DNA of 64,000 nucleotides from Lachnospiraceae bacterium C7. Lineage in GTDB: Bacteria > Bacillota > Clostridia > Lachnospirales > Lachnospiraceae. Both the position numbers and the translations under genes were made by a program. Location: positions 1 through 64,000 of the forward strand of contig FOPE01000003.1 in NCBI GenBank assembly GCA_900113385.1, written 5' to 3'. Shown piece by piece: positions 53,033 to 63,713 of the stretch (its first letter is position 1; each line of letters opens with the position of its first letter). Below the pieces are notes generated by a model. It did not search any database and was not told the DNA's origin. It saw only the letters and a program-made list of their open reading frames with translations.

Positions 53033-54622
53033 ATGGCCCAGCAGAAAAATGGACAGCAGAACGGCGGACAGCAAGATCTTAATCAATTGCTTCAAATCCG
53101 TCGTGACAAATTAAAAGATTTACAAGAGAGAGGAAAGAATCCTTTCGAGATTACTAAATTTGATGTAACACATCATTCAGTTGATGTAAAAGACAACTAT
53201 GAAACTTTACAATTTGAAGCACCTGTTGATGAAAATGGTAAAAGTATCGTAGTACCTATGGAAGAAATTCCAGAAGGTAAATTAGTTGCAATTGCAGGAC
53301 GTATGATGTTTAAACGTGTAATGGGTAAAGCATCTTTCGCAAATGTACGTGATTTAAAAGGCGATATTCAGATTTACATTTCAAAAAATGATCTCGGCGA
53401 AGACTCTTATAAAGATTTTAAGAAATATGATATAGGTGATATCGTTGGAATTAAAGGTTTTGTTTTCAAAACAAAAACAGGTGAAATCTCAATTCACGCA
53501 AAAGAAGTAACTCTTTTATCTAAGAGTTTACAGATTTTACCAGAAAAATTCCATGGTTTAACAGATACTGATATGAGATACCGTCAGAGATACGTTGACC
53601 TTATTATGAACCCAGAATCAAGAGATACATTTGTTAAACGTTCTCAGATTATTAGAGAAATTCGTAAGTTCTTAGATGGTAGAGATTTCATGGAAGTAGA
53701 AACACCTATGCTTGTTCATAATGCAGGTGGTGCAGCTGCTAGACCATTTGAAACTCATTACAATTCATTAAGCGAAGACGTTAAACTTCGTATTTCTCTT
53801 GAATTATACCTAAAGAGACTTATTGTTGGTGGTATGGAAAGAGTATACGAAATTGGTCGTGTATTCCGTAATGAAGGTGTAGATACTCGTCACAATCCAG
53901 AATTTACACTTATGGAATTATACCAAGCATACACAGATTATGAAGGTATGATGGAACTTACAGAGAGCATGTTCCGTCACCTTGCTCAGGTTGTATGTGG
54001 TAGCACAACAATTACATACCAAGGAACAGAAATTGACCTTGGAAAACCATTCCGTAGATTATCAATGACAGAAGCTGTCAAAGAGGAAACAGGAATCGAC
54101 TTTGATCAAGTTCAGACTGATGAAGAAGCAAAACAACTTGCAGCAGAACATCATTTAGAATATTTAGAGCACCACAAGAAAGGTGATATCTTAAACTTAT
54201 TTTTTGAAGAGTGTTGTGAAGATAAGATGATCCAACCTACATTTATTACAGATCATCCACTTGAAATTAGTCCACTTACAAAGAAAAAACCTTCAGATCC
54301 TACTAAAGTAGAGCGTTTTGAGTTATATATCTATGGACGTGAAATGTGTAATGCATACTCAGAGCTTAATGATCCAATCGATCAGCAGGAACGTTTCGCA
54401 GAACAAGATAAATTAGCTGATTTAGGTGATGATGAAGCTCAACATACAGATGAAGATTTCTTAAATGCACTTAGTGTAGGTATGCCTCCAACAGGTGGTA
54501 TCGGATACGGAATCGATCGTCTTGTTATGTTATTAACAGATTCACCTGCAATTAGAGATGTACTTCTCTTCCCAACACTTAAGAGTACTGCAAACCGTAA
54601 GGACTCAGAGAACGAGAAGTAA
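53033..54622 (+). CDS. lysS: Lysyl-tRNA synthetase, class II
   Basis: A 529-aa enzyme charging tRNA-Lys. An N-terminal OB-fold anticodon domain is followed by the class II core: motif 1 near [21 protein letters not shown], motif 2 [20 protein letters not shown], and motif 3 [14 protein letters not shown]. It begins with a short Gln/Gly-rich stretch. It ends soon after motif 3 (RKDSENEK). It is the last chromosomal housekeeping gene before the integrative element. Confidence 0.96.
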
Positions 54623-54914: not shown

Positions 54915-55391
54915 ATGGAATCAAATAATAATTCACCACCAAACTTGGATAAATATCTTGTCGGAAGAGAACATCACTACATGACATATCAAGATGGAGC
55001 TAGAGAATATAGTTTGCCCTATTGGGGATTCGTTAATTTGGCAAAAGAAGCTGAGGCAAATATTACTTTAAGGAAAACTGCAATCGTTGATATGGATAAA
55101 TTAGAAAAATATATAGAAAAGAATTATGTGGATAGTAATTATCCAGGAAAGGAGGCTAACATGCCTAGAGGAAGAAAGAAAATTGAAAATATAGATGAAT
55201 TAGTAAAAAACGGAAAAAAGAAATATGTGAGATATACAGAAGGAGCACAGCTTTATTCTATGGGCCTTCATACGTTTCAGAATCTCGCAAAAGATGCTAA
55301 CGCAATAAGAAAAGTAAAGGGAGTAGTTCTTGTTAATACTGAAAAGATAGATGCATTTATAGAGTCATTTGAGGAGGGAGGACGTTATTAA
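54915..55391 (+). CDS. Tandem DUF6462-like DNA-binding protein of the element
   Basis: A 158-aa protein made of two related halves. HYMTYQDGAREYSLPYWGFV...NLAKEAEANITLRK and KYVRYTEGAQLYSMGLHTFQ...NLAKDANAIRKVKG have the same spacing and an excisionase/MerR-like helix-turn-helix look, each ending in a 'vDmdKlekYi' type helix. I read each half as a DUF6462 unit. A strong internal AAAGGAGG with ATG at 55161 lies between the halves, so the second half (76 aa) can be made alone. TTGGAGG precedes the first ATG. It sits one base upstream of parA and probably regulates this unit. Confidence 0.75.
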   Translation: MESNNNSPPNLDKYLVGREHHYMTYQDGAREYSLPYWGFVNLAKEAEANITLRKTAIVDMDKLEKYIEKNYVDSNYPGKEANMPRGRKKIENIDELVKNGKKKYVRYTEGAQLYSMGLHTFQNLAKDANAIRKVKGVVLVNTEKIDAFIESFEEGGRY

Positions 55392-56176
55392 TGTGTAAGG
55401 TAATTGCAGTTGCAAATCAAAAAGGTGGGGTTGGAAAGACTGTAACTTGTGTGAATTTAGGAATTGGACTTGCTAGAGAAGGAAAAAAAGTATTGATGAT
55501 TGATGCTGATCCTCAAGGTTCATTGACAATAAGTCTAGGATGTGATGAACCGGATAGTCTAGATTATTCATTGGCTACAGCAATGATTAATATTATCAAT
55601 GATGAAGAAGTTGATGTAAAACATGGACTCATCCATCATGAGGAAGGCGTAGATATTTTACCAGGCAATATTGAATTATCAAGTTTGGAAATAACTTTAA
55701 CTGGAGTAATTAGTCGAGAAACAATTCTTAGAGAATATGTAAATAAGGCAAGAGATATATATGATTACATAATTATCGATTGTATGCCTTCGCTTGGAAT
55801 GATGACTATAAATGCTTTGGCTTGTGCAGATTCCGTTTTAATACCTGTACAAGCTGCATATTTGCCTGTTAAGGGATTACAACAGCTAATTAAGACAATT
55901 GGTAGGGTTAAGCGTCAATTGAACCCTCATTTGGCTATAGAGGGCATTTTAATCACTATGGTTGATAATAGAACAAATTATGCAAAGGATATAGCTTCAC
56001 AAGTATATGCAGTTTATTCATCTAGCATAAATGTATTTCCAATTGAGATTCCTTTATCTGTTAGAGCTGCAGAAATAAGTGCATCTGGCAGTAGTTTATA
56101 TGTTTATGATCCAAAAGGAAAAGCAGCATTTGCTTATACCGCGCTAATTAAGGAGGTAATGAGTCATGCCAAGTAG
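55391..56176 (+). CDS. parA: ParA-family partition ATPase
   Basis: A 261-aa protein that moves or segregates DNA with ParB. It has the deviant Walker A NQKGGVGKTVTCVNLG (Lys11 and Lys16), switch motif MIDADPQGSLTISLG, and IIDCMPSLGMMTINAL as Walker B. It has no N-terminal DNA-binding domain, so it is the Soj-type. Its ATG overlaps the preceding stop (TAATG), with GGAGGGAGG upstream. Such parAB pairs open many Clostridial conjugative elements of the Tn1549/CTn group and stabilise the excised circle. Confidence 0.94.
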   Translation: MCKVIAVANQKGGVGKTVTCVNLGIGLAREGKKVLMIDADPQGSLTISLGCDEPDSLDYSLATAMINIINDEEVDVKHGLIHHEEGVDILPGNIELSSLEITLTGVISRETILREYVNKARDIYDYIIIDCMPSLGMMTINALACADSVLIPVQAAYLPVKGLQQLIKTIGRVKRQLNPHLAIEGILITMVDNRTNYAKDIASQVYAVYSSSINVFPIEIPLSVRAAEISASGSSLYVYDPKGKAAFAYTALIKEVMSHAK

Positions 56177-57077
56177 AGTTGGTAAGAAAGTAAAACTCGC
56201 CAGTGTAGATGAATTATTAGGTGTTCCAAGTGTAGAAGGAACAGTAGATCTTGATGTGATGACAATATATCCATTTGAAAATCATCCTTTTAGAGTTGTG
56301 GATGATGAGGATATGGATGATTTAGTTGAGAGCATAAAAGAAAATGGTATCTTAACTCCAGTACTTGTACGTCCGGATGATCAGGGCACCTATGAAATGA
56401 TATCTGGTCATAGAAGACTTCATGCAGCCAAAAAAGTAGGGCTTAGAAAAATTCCAGCAATTATCAAAGAAATGACTAATGATGATGCAACAATTGCTAT
56501 GGTAGATGCCAATATGCAGCGTGAAGAAATTCTTCCAAGTGAAAGAGCCTTTTCGCTAAAAATGAAAATGGATGCAATGAATCATCGTGGTAGTCGCTCA
56601 GATTTAACTTTGTCGCATGATGCGACAAAGTTAGTATCGGCTGAAAAAATAGGTGCAGAAGTAGGGCTAGGACGTTCACAAGTGCATAGATATATAAGAT
56701 TGACATATTTAATTCCACAGTTATTAGACTTAGTAGATGCTGGAAGATTAGCATTTGCAGTTGCTGGTGAGATATCTTATTTGAATCATAAATATCAGCA
56801 ATGGATCTTTGAATATATTCGTGAGAATGGAATGATTAAGCAGGAACAGCTCATGGATTTAAGAGCCTATAGAGAAGATGATTCTCTTACACAAGAAAAA
56901 ATGATAGACATCTTGATTAAAAGTAGAGCAACACCACAGACAAGAAAGAAAATAACTTTTTCTGAGAGGAAGCTTAATAAGTATTTTCCAGCTTTTTACT
57001 CTCAAACTGAAATTGAAAATATCATGATAAAACTATTGGAACAATGGAAGGAAGCACAAGAAAGTGAGGATGCATAA
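56166..57077 (+). CDS. parB: ParB-family partition protein
   Basis: A 303-aa centromere-binding protein. The N-terminal CTPase/ParB domain has NHPFRVVDDEDMDDLVESIK and SGHRRLHAAKKVGLRKIPAI. The central helix-turn-helix is EKIGAEVGLGRSQVHRYIRL. The C-terminal part is charged. It overlaps parA by 11 bases. A perfect 29-bp palindrome (56605-56633) lies inside the gene just upstream of the helix-turn-helix codons and may be its own binding site. Confidence 0.93.
   Translation: MPSRVGKKVKLASVDELLGVPSVEGTVDLDVMTIYPFENHPFRVVDDEDMDDLVESIKENGILTPVLVRPDDQGTYEMISGHRRLHAAKKVGLRKIPAIIKEMTNDDATIAMVDANMQREEILPSERAFSLKMKMDAMNHRGSRSDLTLSHDATKLVSAEKIGAEVGLGRSQVHRYIRLTYLIPQLLDLVDAGRLAFAVAGEISYLNHKYQQWIFEYIRENGMIKQEQLMDLRAYREDDSLTQEKMIDILIKSRATPQTRKKITFSERKLNKYFPAFYSQTEIENIMIKLLEQWKEAQESEDA
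56605..56633. repeat. Perfect 29-bp palindrome inside parB (candidate parS)
   Basis: The arm TAACTTTGTCGCAT and its exact reverse complement flank a single central G. It encodes LTLSHDATKLV within ParB, in a Ser/Asp-rich linker before the helix-turn-helix. Fourteen perfect pairs are very unlikely by chance in coding DNA. ParB-binding centromeres are palindromic and often close to parAB. Confidence 0.9.
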
Positions 57078-57078
57078 T

Positions 57079-57444
57079 ATGATGGATTATTTTTATGGAA
57101 CCCAAGCAAAACAATTTGCATCAGTAGAGATACCCAAGGAACTTTTAACAGGGAAGAATTTCTCTTCCCTGTCTCCATCCGCAAAGATGCTATATGCGGT
57201 TATGTTAGATCGGATGAATGAAGCATCAAAACACAATTGGTTTGATGAAGAAAATAGAGTTTATATTATCTATCCATTAAATCAGATAAAAGAAGATATT
57301 AATTTTTCTAAGCATACAATAATTGATTGTATGACTGAGTTAGAAAATATCGGACTTATATATAAGCTACAGATAAAAGGTAAGCCAAACAAAATATACG
57401 TGAAAAATTTTAATGAACGAAAATTATTTCAACATGTTGGGTAG
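57079..57444 (+). CDS. RepA_N-type replication initiator, short form
   Basis: A 121-aa protein that matches only the N-terminal domain of RepA_N initiators: MMDYFYGTQAKQFASVEIPKELL, LSPSAKMLYAVMLDRMNEAS, then a winged-helix end IGLIYKLQIKGKPNKIYVKNF. It is similar over its whole length to the first part of the following RepA. The start at 57079 is preferred because GAGGA lies 8 bases upstream; a GTG at 57064 overlaps parB. It may regulate or compete with the full RepA. Confidence 0.8.
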   Translation: MMDYFYGTQAKQFASVEIPKELLTGKNFSSLSPSAKMLYAVMLDRMNEASKHNWFDEENRVYIIYPLNQIKEDINFSKHTIIDCMTELENIGLIYKLQIKGKPNKIYVKNFNERKLFQHVG

Positions 57445-57458
57445 TGCAAATATTGCAC
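57444..57458. promoter_or_regulatory. Dyad GTGCAA-ATA-TTGCAC before repA
   Basis: A perfect 6-bp dyad separated by ATA, starting at the last base of the short initiator gene. Its TTGCAC half also occurs in the twin operator at 58490 and 58524, so the same ribbon-helix-helix regulator might bind; this is inference. Confidence 0.4.
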
Positions 57459-57509
57459 CACTGAACGTTATAGAGATATATAGAACATCATTGAAGGGAG
57501 GAAATGAAA

Positions 57510-58457
57510 TTGGGCGAAAAAATAATTTTTGATTATTTCAAAGGTCAAGAATCAGAAATGCTTACCTTCTATAGAATACCTAAATTGTTATTTACAAACG
57601 ATTATTTCAAACAGCTTTCTGTAGAATCAAAGGTATTGTACGGATTAATGCTAGATAGAATGTCATTATCGTTAAAAAATAAGTGGTTTGATGCCGAAAA
57701 TAGGGCATATATATACTTTTCACAACAAGATGCAATGGAAATGTTAAACTGCAAGGAAAATAAAGCAGGAAGCTTATTTAAGGATCTTGAAGCCATAGGT
57801 TTAATAGAGAGAAGAAGACAGGGCCAAGGCAAGCCAGCTATTATCTATTTGAAGAATTTTGTGCAGGAAGAAGCTTCTAGTCAGACATGGGAAAAATCAA
57901 TGTCTGAGAATGTGGATAATGTTTCAGACATGGGAAAAACCAATGTCAAGACATTTGAAAAACCAATGTCTAGAGATGGAAATAATCAAAGTCTAGACAT
58001 GGGAAAAACCAATGCTAATTATAATAATATAAATAATAATAATTTATATATAACTAATCATATCAATCATCAAGATACAAGATTGAACGATGAGTATAAA
58101 GCATACTCAGAAATAATTAGCGATAATTTGGAACTTGAGATCATGAAAGAGCGTTATCCTCATGACAAAGAAGTAATTGACGGTATTTACGATTTGATTT
58201 TAGAGACGGTTCTTTGCCAAAAAGATTCTATTTGGATTGCTAAAAATGAATATCCAAGAGAACTAGTTAAGTCAAAATTCTTAAAACTTGATAGTTCACA
58301 TCTTGAGTATGTCATGGATTGTTTAAAGCACAATACAACAAAGATTAGAAATATAAAAGGCTATGTTCTATCTGCACTGTTTAATGCACCAACAACGATC
58401 AGCAGCTATTATCAGGCAGAAGTAAATTACGATATGGCTTATGGCGCATTTGACTAA
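57510..58457 (+). CDS. repA: RepA_N replication initiator of the element
   Basis: A 315-aa initiator. The N-terminal RepA_N domain (about 1-115) has LTFYRIPKLLFTNDYFKQL, ESKVLYGLMLDRMSLS and IGLIERRRQGQGKPAIIYLKNF. The middle (about 120-195) is low-complexity and is encoded by iterons. The C-terminal domain (about 210-315) resembles DUF6017, with MKERYPHDKEVIDGIYDLI and IRNIKGYVLSALFNAPTTI. The TTG at 57510 is chosen because it is 8 bases from GGGAGG; an ATG at 57504 is only 2 bases away. RepA_N proteins start replication of plasmids and of excised conjugative elements. Confidence 0.88.
   Translation: MGEKIIFDYFKGQESEMLTFYRIPKLLFTNDYFKQLSVESKVLYGLMLDRMSLSLKNKWFDAENRAYIYFSQQDAMEMLNCKENKAGSLFKDLEAIGLIERRRQGQGKPAIIYLKNFVQEEASSQTWEKSMSENVDNVSDMGKTNVKTFEKPMSRDGNNQSLDMGKTNANYNNINNNNLYITNHINHQDTRLNDEYKAYSEIISDNLELEIMKERYPHDKEVIDGIYDLILETVLCQKDSIWIAKNEYPRELVKSKFLKLDSSHLEYVMDCLKHNTTKIRNIKGYVLSALFNAPTTISSYYQAEVNYDMAYGAFD
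57881..58070. repeat. Four intragenic iterons plus AT-rich stretch in repA (candidate origin)
   Basis: Four copies of a roughly 23-bp unit, AGACAT - GGGAAAAACCA - ATGTCT, lie at 57883-57905, 57927-57947, 57949-57971 and 57995-58015, with small changes in copies 1, 3 and 4. The ends of each unit are inverted (copy 1 has TCAGACAT and ATGTCTGA). Copies 1 and 3 are read as ..TWEKSMS / TFEKPMS and copies 2 and 4 as DMGKTN, that is, in a different codon frame, so DNA rather than protein is conserved. A very AT-rich run (58014-58070) follows. RepA_N replicons are known to carry their origin as repeats inside repA. Confidence 0.85.
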
Positions 58458-58481
58458 ACTAGAAAAGCTAATTGATAGCAT

Positions 58482-58540
58482 TTGACATTGTTGCACAACA
58501 CTCATATAATAAAACTATAGAGAGTTGCACAACACTCATA
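58482..58540 (+). promoter_or_regulatory. Consensus promoter with twin 17-bp operators
   Basis: TTGACA, 17 bases, TATAAT: a perfect sigma-A promoter at 58482-58510. Two identical copies of GTTGCACAACACTCATA lie at 58490-58506 (between -35 and -10) and 58524-58540 (just after the expected start). Each contains the dyad GTTG-CA-CAAC. They are 34 bases apart, about three helical turns. The arrangement predicts strong repression by a dimeric regulator, most simply the ribbon-helix-helix protein encoded directly downstream. Confidence 0.85.
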
Positions 58541-58550
58541 GGAGGTCAAT

Positions 58551-58985
58551 ATGCCAAGAATAAATTTATCAGTTAGCCAGGAGCTTTATGATCGACTTAA
58601 GGAAGTTGCAGATAGCAAATATTTAAGTGTAAATTCTATGATTGTAAATGAATTAGAGAAGAAATACTCTAAGACACAAGTATATGATTATAGTGTTGCC
58701 ATGGAAGCCTTAAAAAGAGAATCTGAGGCAATGGATGTTGAGTTTACATTATCTGATTTACCATCTTTTAAAAACGTAGATCAGGTGGTTATAGAAAAAC
58801 AATTAGAAGAATCTGCAGCTTCAATTAGAGCAAGACTTGGAAAGATTTATAATGAGGCAGTTCGCAATGGCCAGATTGACGGAGTTGTAAGGGCAGTAAT
58901 TGAAAGAAATGGTGTAGAAGAAAACAAAACTATTGCGAGAGCTGCAGTTTATGTTAACAAGATAAACAGTCTAAAAGAGAGGTAG
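58551..58985 (+). CDS. Ribbon-helix-helix regulator
   Basis: A 144-aa protein. Residues 1-45 (MPRINLSVSQELYDRLKEVA, SVNSMIVNELEKKY) form a ribbon-helix-helix DNA-binding domain; the rest is helical and charged. AGGAGG precedes the ATG. The very strong promoter with two operator copies in front suggests autorepression. In other conjugative elements such proteins control copy number, partition or transfer. It is followed closely by a membrane protein gene. Confidence 0.82.
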   Translation: MPRINLSVSQELYDRLKEVADSKYLSVNSMIVNELEKKYSKTQVYDYSVAMEALKRESEAMDVEFTLSDLPSFKNVDQVVIEKQLEESAASIRARLGKIYNEAVRNGQIDGVVRAVIERNGVEENKTIARAAVYVNKINSLKER

Positions 58986-61473: not shown

Positions 61474-61959
61474 GTGAATGAAGAAGTATCAGATAGATCT
61501 GTAAGACTTGCAGGAAGGACAACTAAAATTACTGCAGTAACATTATATAGATTATTAAGAGCAGCTTACAGGCATCACGTCCATAAGAAAATGGAAAAAG
61601 GAATGAAACCTCTCGGAGAGCAGTCTGTAAAAACACTTATTAAACAAGGCCAGGGAGCATCAAGTATGGATGTTAGTGGTGAAAGCATAAAGGACTTTAA
61701 AAGGATTGCTAATAAGTATGGTGTGGATTTTGCTATCGTAAAAGACAAAGATGTAAAACCATCTAGATATACTGTTTTCTTTAAGGCAAAAGATGCTGAT
61801 GCTATTGGTCAGGTACTAAAAGAGTATTCTAAGAAAATTGTAAAGAGACAGGAAAGAAAGAATAGGCCAAGTATCTTACAACGACTTAAGAAACTTAAAG
61901 CTATAATTGCTAAGAGATCGCATAAGGAAAAAGAAAAGAAAAAGGAGCAAGTATTATGA
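61474..61959 (+). CDS. pcfB: PcfB-family conjugation protein
   Basis: A 161-aa protein of the PcfB/DUF3801 family. The N-terminus has VRLAGRTTKITAVTLYRLLRA and the middle IANKYGVDFAIVKDKDVKPSRYTVFFKAKD, which are the family's core. The tail is extremely Lys-rich. In pCF10 conjugation PcfB acts with the coupling protein PcfC. It starts at GTG behind AAAGGAGG, and its stop overlaps the ATG of the coupling protein gene (ATGA). Confidence 0.88.
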   Translation: MNEEVSDRSVRLAGRTTKITAVTLYRLLRAAYRHHVHKKMEKGMKPLGEQSVKTLIKQGQGASSMDVSGESIKDFKRIANKYGVDFAIVKDKDVKPSRYTVFFKAKDADAIGQVLKEYSKKIVKRQERKNRPSILQRLKKLKAIIAKRSHKEKEKKKEQVL

Positions 61960-63713
61960 ATACAAAAACGAAAAAGCTGCTTATCTTAAATATTCCTTAT
62001 GTACTTATAGGTTTGCTTTGTACTAATCTTGGGGAAGCCTGGAGAATATCCTGGGGAAGTAATATGTCTGAAAAGATGCAGGGACTAATATTGTATGGAG
62101 GTTTTAAAGAAGCCTTCTCAAACATTTTGCCTAGTCTTAATCCCTTAGATTTGGTAGTTGGAATTTGTTGTGGTCTTGCTCTTAGACTTGCAGTTTATCT
62201 AAAAGGTAAAAATGCGAAGAAATATAGGCATAATAAAGAATATGGTTCAGCTAGATGGGGAACTAAGGAAGACATAGCACCATTTGAAGATCCGGTTTTT
62301 CAGCAAAACATCATTCTATCTCAAACAGAAAGAATGATGATGAGTGGAAGACCAAAACAGCCCAAATACGCAAGAAATAAAAATGTACTTGTTGTAGGTG
62401 GTTCTGGATCAGGTAAAACAAGGTTTTTTATTAAACCCAATTTGTTACAAATGCATTCAAGTTATGTTGTGACAGATCCAAAAGGAACTGTAGTAAATGA
62501 AGTAGGTAATGCTCTTGTAAAGAATAACTATCGCTTGAAGATATTTAATACCATAAACTTTAAGAAAAGTATGCATTATAATCCATTTGCATATATTCAT
62601 TGTGAAAAAGATATCTTGAAGCTTGTTACAACACTTATTGCTAATACAAAAGGTGAGGGCAAAGGCGGTGATGAATTCTGGGAGAAAGCAGAAAAACTGC
62701 TATATACAGCACTTATTGGATATATTTACTATGAGGCTTCTGAGGAAGAAAAAAACTTTACAACTCTTCTAGAAATGATCAATGCAATGGAGGTTAGAGA
62801 AGATGATGAAGAATTTAAAAATCCAGTAGATATTCTATTCGATGAGCTTGAAGCTAGAGATTCAGATCATTTTGCTGTAAGACAATATAAAAAATATAAG
62901 TTAGCTGCAGGAAAGACTGCAAAATCTATTTTAGTTAGCTGTGGTGCAAGACTTGCGCCTTTTGATATTGCTGAACTTAGGGAAATTACATCTTATGATG
63001 AATTAGAGTTAGATACTCTTGGAGAGAAGAAAACAGCTTTGTTTCTTATCATGTCAGATACAGATGCAACCTTTAATTTTTTAATATCTATGATATATAC
63101 ACAGCTTTTTAATTTACTTTGTGAGAAGGCAGATGATGTATATGGTGGAAGACTTCCAATTCATGTAAGATGTCTAATCGATGAGGCGGCAAATATTGGT
63201 CAGATACCTAATCTAGAAAAACTAATGGCAACAATCAGAAGTAGAGAAATATCTGCAGCATTAGTACTTCAAGCAAAATCACAGCTTAAGGCAATATACA
63301 AAGACAATGCAGATACTATTATTGGTAACTGTGATAGTCAAATATTCTTAGGTGGCTCAGAACAGACTACGCTTAAAGATCTCAACGCAATTCTTGGTAA
63401 AGAAACAATTGATATGTATAATACAGGAGAATCAAGAGGGCAGAGTCAGAGCTATAACATGAATTATCAAAAACTCGGACATGATCTAATGAGTATTGAT
63501 GAACTAGCAGTTATGGATGGAAGTAAATGTATTGTACAAGTAAGAGGCGTAAGACCTTTTTTATCAGATAAATATGATTTAACGCAGCATCCGAATTATA
63601 AAGATACAGCGGATGCAGATAAAAAGAACTGGTTCGATATAGAAAAGTTCTTATCACATAAGTTAATACTAAAAAAAGATGACGTTTATGACGTTGTCGA
63701 AATGGAAGATTAA
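61956..63713 (+). CDS. VirD4/TraG-type coupling protein
   Basis: A 585-aa membrane ATPase that recruits the relaxase-DNA complex to the type IV secretion channel. Two N-terminal membrane helices (about 8-26 and 62-82) are followed by Walker A VVGGSGSGKTRFFIKPN (Lys154), IVTDPKG-like VTDPKGTVVNE, and Walker B-like RCLIDEAANIGQIP. The end is complete. Its translation is coupled to pcfB, the usual pcfB-pcfC arrangement of Tn1549-type elements. Confidence 0.93.
   Translation: MNTKTKKLLILNIPYVLIGLLCTNLGEAWRISWGSNMSEKMQGLILYGGFKEAFSNILPSLNPLDLVVGICCGLALRLAVYLKGKNAKKYRHNKEYGSARWGTKEDIAPFEDPVFQQNIILSQTERMMMSGRPKQPKYARNKNVLVVGGSGSGKTRFFIKPNLLQMHSSYVVTDPKGTVVNEVGNALVKNNYRLKIFNTINFKKSMHYNPFAYIHCEKDILKLVTTLIANTKGEGKGGDEFWEKAEKLLYTALIGYIYYEASEEEKNFTTLLEMINAMEVREDDEEFKNPVDILFDELEARDSDHFAVRQYKKYKLAAGKTAKSILVSCGARLAPFDIAELREITSYDELELDTLGEKKTALFLIMSDTDATFNFLISMIYTQLFNLLCEKADDVYGGRLPIHVRCLIDEAANIGQIPNLEKLMATIRSREISAALVLQAKSQLKAIYKDNADTIIGNCDSQIFLGGSEQTTLKDLNAILGKETIDMYNTGESRGQSQSYNMNYQKLGHDLMSIDELAVMDGSKCIVQVRGVRPFLSDKYDLTQHPNYKDTADADKKNWFDIEKFLSHKLILKKDDVYDVVEMED

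Follow-up and report, generated by a model that had tools for sequence, protein, structure and literature searches.

Many Gram-positive plasmids are driven by RepA_N initiators, which are present on many ICEs as well; the described systems are cited here from excerpts of the respective papers. In plasmid pSK41, four Rep boxes are located inside rep and the in-gene origin was shown by experiment, the C-terminal domain of its Rep binds DnaG and copy number is controlled by antisense RNA (PMC5703833). RepA_N iterons are described as semi-palindromic, converging on an A tract (PMC7145576). RepA_N genes are also found on many ConjTn1549 and on streptococcal Tn5252-family ICEs; ConjTn1549 elements carry ParA as well, and maintenance of the excised form was proposed (PMC4701971). 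For TnGBS ICEs, Guerillot 2013, which PMC4701971 and PMC5704250 cite, reported replication of the excised element, and Weaver 2009, as told in PMC7145576, speculated about other activities of the RepA_N proteins of conjugative transposons. In the PLE satellite of Vibrio cholerae, the RepA_N domain and the origin covary as modules (PMC8263062, PMC7145576).

The DNA analysed here is a stretch of 64,000 nucleotides from Lachnospiraceae bacterium C7 (the window) that contains a repA gene of the RepA_N type (Table 1). Four repeats of about 23 bp with inverted ends, which an earlier note on this DNA had seen inside repA, are real: they differ from the 23-bp unit AGACATGGGAAAAACCAATGTCT by 1 to 3 mismatches, and no match turned up when the window was dinucleotide-shuffled 100 times. 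A degenerate fifth copy fills the array, the spacing of the copies being 43/23/23/23 bp. Counted from the repA ATG, the copies start in frames 1, 2, 1, 0 (the weak copy) and 2. The distribution given in the earlier note, two copies in each of two codon frames, is therefore right for the four strong copies and the weak copy occupies the third frame; because a pitch of 23 bp shifts the frame at each step, successive copies pass from one codon frame to another. The unit is a semi-palindrome in which the inverted ends GACATGGG and CCAATGTC flank AAAAA, with one mismatch between the arms. The pattern GACATNNGAAAAANCAATG was found at exactly the four strong copies and nowhere else in the assembly (91 contigs, 2,844,513 bases), and the same pattern read backwards, as control, had 0 occurrences. 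The AT-rich run noted behind the repeats is present, with a GC content of 0.15 over the 75 nt past the last iteron versus 0.32 elsewhere in repA (300 nt preceding the patch excluded); the use of AAT codons was no higher in the patch (9 of 10) than elsewhere in the gene (8 of 9).

Table 1 Features of the RepA_N replicon and its surroundings in the window.
Feature	Position	Strand	Basis
attL, 19-bp direct repeat inside lysS	54555..54573	+	partner at C90:101793-101811
parA (55391-56176) and parB (56166-57077)	55391..57077	+	Pfam
small RepA_N-only protein, 126 aa from GTG	57064..57444	+	PF06970, E 7.9e-22; relatives start at residues from ATG 57079
23-bp palindrome across the small RepA stop codon, candidate operator	57440..57462		same place in relatives; putative function
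repA, 317 aa: RepA_N (residues 21-95 in Pfam), linker, DUF6017 (195-314)	57504..58457	+	Pfam, structure model
coding region of the predicted recognition helix (residues 85-98)	57756..57797	+	model; residues 84-87 covary with iteron bases
iteron 1	57883..57905	+	match to AGACATGGGAAAAACCAATGTCT, 1 mismatch
iteron 2	57926..57948	+	match to AGACATGGGAAAAACCAATGTCT, 1 mismatch
iteron 3	57949..57971	+	match to AGACATGGGAAAAACCAATGTCT, 2 mismatches
iteron 4, degenerate, third codon frame	57972..57994	+	copy at equal array step in close relatives, e.g. L007, L011, L014
iteron 5	57995..58017	+	match to AGACATGGGAAAAACCAATGTCT, 3 mismatches
AT-rich run, candidate DNA unwinding element	58018..58070	+	low GC; putative function
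DUF6017 C-terminal domain, presumed replisome recruitment	58086..58445	+	Pfam; function by analogy with the pSK41 C-terminal domain
coupling protein (VirD4/TraG type), conjugation module	61956..63713	+	Pfam

The array is located between the two domains of RepA, in a stretch predicted to be disordered. The N-terminal domain (NTD) was identified as PF06970 with E 2.6e-25 and 88.5 bits (cut-off 30) and the C-terminal domain (CTD) as DUF6017, PF19481, with E 1.6e-42. The structure model was of moderate quality (mean pLDDT 65, pTM 0.39); residues 123-192 had a pLDDT <50, consistent with a disordered linker, and helices were modelled at residues 74-81 and 85-98, of which the latter is the presumed recognition helix. 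The NTD matched the solved RepA chains 4pt7, 4pql, 5kbj and 4pta, and one of these structures, 5kbj, is a Rep-DNA complex. All eight Foldseek matches at E <= 0.001 were of the NTD type, with an rmsd of about 8 in the NTD overlay, and no match was reported for DUF6017 at this threshold; the term DUF6017 was not found in the literature searched.

For comparison, 204 ORFs encoding RepA_N and DUF6017 were collected from regions hand-picked among the matches listed, a set that is not exhaustive; 195 of them were unique and 175 remained after dereplication. At least three iteron copies were detected in 149 of the 175 genes, and 26 had fewer. A register filter (palindrome/A-tract) dropped 10 of the 149, leaving 139 genes for the covariation analysis, and the iterons of 10 of these were re-registered against the family mean. 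In the 139 genes the spacing was exactly 23 bp in 520 cases, the next commonest value being 43 bp with 17 cases; 132 genes used three frames and 7 used two. In the family mean, AGAAGTGTGAAAATCAAACTTCA, the ends are conserved and the centre is rich in A; the arms vary, being alike within one gene and unlike between genes. In 127 genes the GC content of the 75 nt past the last iteron was below that of the remaining gene, and in 133 the GC3 was lower. In-frame peptide repeats were seen in the linkers of a few relatives (L118, L112 and L099).

Next to the arrangement of the repeats, their constraint was analysed. The best out-of-frame repeat of each linker was compared with 200 shuffles that preserve the protein and the codon use of the gene. 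135 of 175 linkers were above all 200 shuffles (102 at lag 23, 23 at lag 46), and 40 fell short of beating every shuffle; control segments of equal length exceeded all shuffles in 1 of 175 NTDs and 0 of 175 CTDs. A smaller, earlier set of 86 genes had given 59 linkers, 0 NTDs and 0 CTDs. Furthermore, at conserved degenerate residues the same codon was used with a frequency of 0.77 inside iterons versus 0.45 in NTD and CTD, and of the 1275 gene pairs compared, whose domains are 50-90% identical, 1261 had the higher value in the iterons; gene pairs are non-independent and local codon bias was uncontrolled. Counted by gene, the sign holds in 126 of 127. Between the window and its relative L007, 24 of 27 codons were identical in iterons versus 90 of 182 in NTD and CTD. 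Both tests strongly support the proposal that selection acts on the DNA itself; the codon comparison addresses the check suggested in the earlier note, whether the DNA of the repeats is conserved where the peptide changes. An origin of the repeats at the level of the peptide was rejected, since synonymous shuffles remove the signal and synonymous sites are conserved inside the iterons.

Mutual information (MI) was determined between half-site bases and 228 protein columns (114 NTD + 114 CTD; 2280 tests) in the 139 genes. Linker residues were excluded because they trivially mirror the iteron DNA; a first run with 71 genes had included them, and L101, L130 and L048 were removed by hand. The eight highest raw MI values all came from residues 84-87, the start of the predicted recognition helix, and after APC (background) correction four of the five top values came from residues 85 and 86 and the other one from residue 89. 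R85 was accompanied by G at d7 in 82% and K86 by G at d5 in 85%, D86 by C at d5 in 66% and D85 by C at d6 in 69%, pairs which we take to be in line with side-chain chemistry. When overall NTD identity was allowed for, residues 86 and 85 ranked first and second of 223 columns, followed by wing residue 105 and CTD column 267 (L267); covariation was further seen for the CTD columns L260 and W244. Since CTD columns also covary and gene pairs are non-independent, shared ancestry is not fully removed from these values.

The residue-base preferences were then applied to held-out genes. Among 44 RepA_N ORFs outside the training set, 38 had a sufficient repeat score and 26 were unique by residues 84-87 and consensus; close kin remain among the latter (L027/L036; L283/L284/L291). 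23 of the 26 have other C-terminal domains and include plasmid genes, with hosts such as Staphylococcus, Mammaliicoccus, Enterococcus, Lactococcus, Latilactobacillus and Lactiplantibacillus. Residues 84-87 ranked the true iteron at a mean percentile of 0.84 (26 genes) or 0.81 (23 genes), a value reached by 0 of 2000 permutations; 150 sets of four other NTD columns, applied to the 23 genes as control, gave a mean of 0.51 and a maximum of 0.65. L117 and L299 failed, and L286 and L303 were weak. The code is not yet usable as a site finder: trained on 113 genes with <60% NTD identity to the window, it placed the iteron centres at ranks 768, 318, 88, 401 and 1895 of 63977, and the family average alone did better (90, 35, 15, 53 and 961). 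Trained on 138 genes, with close relatives in and the window gene out, it placed the window iterons at ranks 1-6. A second RepA_N+DUF6017 gene of the same host, on contig C46, has the helix ASQK and a different iteron, which is, as a single case, what a code that keeps elements apart would lead one to expect. In sum, RepA as the predicted reader of the iterons, a role suggested for it before, is well supported by residue-base covariation, held-out ranking and homology to solved RepA NTDs.

The replicon is part of a larger element. This element spans 47.2 kb between two copies of a 19-bp direct repeat, one inside lysS at 54555 and the other at 101793 on contig C90, and in it parA, parB, the small RepA_N-only gene, repA, an RHH gene and the coupling protein gene follow each other. 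Rightward ORFs on contig C90, ten in L131 and ten in L307, were scanned, and conjugation genes were assigned by Pfam families; they include T4SS genes, a MobA/VirD2-type relaxase and a Tn916-type tyrosine integrase. Judged by its att repeats and its predicted integrase, relaxase, coupling protein and T4SS genes, the element is an integrated ICE, in agreement with the conjugative nature claimed for it before. When rejoined, lysS was found uninterrupted in 3 of 59 other genomes of the genus (G034, G052 and G035 with 72, 71 and 65% identity); in the window's own genome the match was split into two parts that share the att repeat, and in G054 into two parts separated by about 42 kb. lysS was located near repA in 12 of the 35 loci L007-L041, six of which have a RepA of another C-terminal type. 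lysS is split by the ICE: the body of LysS ends in a short tail coded past attL, and an ORF for the C-terminal tRNA_bind domain (PF01588, E 4.3e-25) is left beyond attR at C90:101786-102301 (L307:17786-18301); another tRNA_bind ORF is located within the element (L307:11864-12301). The ICE also carries defence cargo (L131:13364-18128, L307:2052-11184), comprising BREX BrxA, BrxB, BrxC, PglZ and BrxL, a GmrSD-type enzyme and an ApeA-like HEPN protein.

In the small RepA_N-only protein the helix residues are SKHT, and the palindrome across its stop codon reads GGTAGTGCAAATATTGCACCACT. For comparison, 23 rows were listed, deduplicated by helix and best palindrome; at least one of them, L008:5414, represents a fragment of repA instead of a small RepA. 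A GTGCA- or GTTCA-type palindrome was centred 9-23 nt past the start of the stop codon in 12 of these 23, among them all eight listed rows with an S[K/R]HT helix; because these eight come from related elements, ancestry may explain part of the agreement. In three rows with an SKRK or SRRK helix AGRAGTGCA...TGCACTTCT was found 15-23 nt past the start of the stop codon, L008 had a palindrome at 37 nt and the remaining rows had none or a weak one. The code trained on RepA did not single out the palindrome in the window (rank 420 of 63977), and two of six half-site positions, d4 and d5, were contrary to its prediction, which amounts to partial support. From its position, the small RepA probably binds the palindrome upstream of repA and thereby regulates repA, a weaker case than that for RepA and the iterons. 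In L008, an Oribacterium relative, a stop codon lies within the iteron region of repA and the frame of the small repA differs from that of the other small repA genes, with both kinds of sites retained. A promoter scan of 56900-58700 gave 10 sites versus 10.1 in shuffles. At 58482-58540, just 5' of the RHH gene (58551), a sigma-70 promoter match (12/12) is overlapped by two 17-bp direct repeats, GTTGCACAACACTCATA (58490 and 58524).

We consider it likely, with a probability of roughly 0.8, that the repeats are RepA binding sites (iterons) which form a RepA_N-type origin inside repA. From the computed repeats, the constraint on the DNA, the residue-base covariation and the ICE structure we infer binding, melting and replication after excision as follows. 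Each 23-bp semi-palindrome would be bound by the winged-HTH domain of RepA, which probably acts as a dimer, and residues 84-87, where the recognition helix begins, would do most of the reading of the bases 3-7 bp from the dyad. Melting would probably take place in the AT-rich run beside the array, and the DUF6017 domain would probably recruit the replisome. Since the array encodes a predicted disordered linker, the DNA beneath it would be free to serve as origin. The ICE would replicate autonomously after excision from lysS, and its replicon (repA and parAB) would most likely retain the excised circle in the cell.

Other explanations were weighed against this one. That the repeats are a by-product of a repetitive or low-complexity linker has next to no chance: the linker is predicted to be disordered, slippage can create repeated peptides and the in-frame repeats of three relatives fit such an origin, but here copies in differing frames encode differing peptides, the signal is lost in synonymous shuffles and synonymous sites are conserved inside the iterons. 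Centromeres commonly consist of short-repeat arrays and parAB is located just upstream of the repA region, so parS sites of the neighbouring ParB come to mind; the iteron bases, however, covary with the recognition helix of RepA, not only in the 139 genes but also in held-out plasmid genes, which makes parS sites very unlikely.

More weight, though still little, is given to RepA binding the repeats solely for transcriptional autoregulation or for the pairing of DNA copies, with replication starting elsewhere. Evidence for a binding site alone leaves the origin function unproven, and the repeats lie within a transcribed gene; against this stand the AT-richer patch after the array in 127 of 139 genes, the separate candidate operator upstream and the in-gene Rep boxes of the homologous pSK41, which are the origin (PMC5703833). 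Finally, the replicon could be a relic or have another role, the ICE spreading by excision and conjugation without replicating itself. The element is integrated in the assembly, both repA and the small repA are broken in L008, and the idea of other RepA_N activities (Weaver 2009 as told in PMC7145576) points the same way. We regard this as improbable, if a little less so, since the element has intact repA, parA and parB genes and intact iterons, synonymous sites in iterons are conserved among relatives and replication after excision was reported for TnGBS (Guerillot 2013 as cited in PMC4701971 and PMC5704250).

With the in-gene origin as preferred reading, we give even odds to a wider one: a transferable code in residues 84-87 would largely set the iteron bases, so that origin specificity and compatibility drift by few residue changes with the array copies following, and two readers on separate sites, RepA on the in-gene origin and its companion on the palindrome at its own stop codon, would constitute a replication control switch. 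With a residue-to-base code derived from genome data, origin specificity and incompatibility would become predictable, and the code is testable because each gene carries both the protein and its target. Further, ICEs of Clostridia would gain a concrete plasmid-like candidate origin, which agrees with the view that an ICE can persist as a replicating circle.

An origin within rep (pSK41, PMC5703833), RepA_N genes on ICEs (PMC4701971) and covariation of modules in PLE (PMC8263062) are already known. The excerpts of the literature searched contained no residue-level RepA_N code, in-gene iterons on such ICEs or RepA_N-only companion with a palindrome; an earlier description is possible, and apparently new are the ICE/DUF6017 setting of in-gene iterons, the inferred code and the companion with its own palindrome. 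Like pSK41 Rep, the window RepA has a winged-HTH NTD, candidate origin boxes in the middle of the gene, a linker and a C-terminal domain, and the origin function of its array is proposed by analogy with pSK41; unlike in pSK41, repA is located on an ICE and a RepA_N-only companion with a palindrome is seen, the copy control of pSK41 being by antisense RNA (excerpts of PMC5703833). A link between the C-terminal domain of pSK41 Rep and DUF6017 was not found. Staphylococcal RepA NTD structures match the window NTD in sequence and fold, and the best repeat lag was also 23 bp in three of four staphylococcal plasmid genes (L296-L298), L299 being without a clear lag. Enterococcal, lactococcal and lactobacillal RepA_N plasmids (L300-L304, L306) have semi-palindromic in-repA iterons with an A-rich centre as well but, unlike in the window, these are 54 or 42 bp apart and in frame in five of the six genes (L300, L301, L302, L304 and L306); L303 of Latilactobacillus gave 23 bp, the out-of-frame spacing of most clostridial genes.

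Among ICEs, the excerpts of PMC4701971 on ConjTn1549, Tn5252 and TnGBS do not mention in-gene iterons. The window iterons fit the semi-palindromic form converging on an A tract, and the ICE resembles the PLE satellite in being integrated and in having a RepA_N initiator with semi-palindromic iterons; in PLE, as far as described in the excerpts of PMC7145576 and PMC8263062, the iterons are noncoding and about 30 bp long and the covariation is not at residue level. In a 518-kb circular record from Monoglobus labelled as plasmid (L295, NZ_OY725736.1), a RepA_N+DUF6017 gene with 23-bp iterons is located beside parB; this record is suggestive of autonomous theta replication of RepA_N+DUF6017 replicons.
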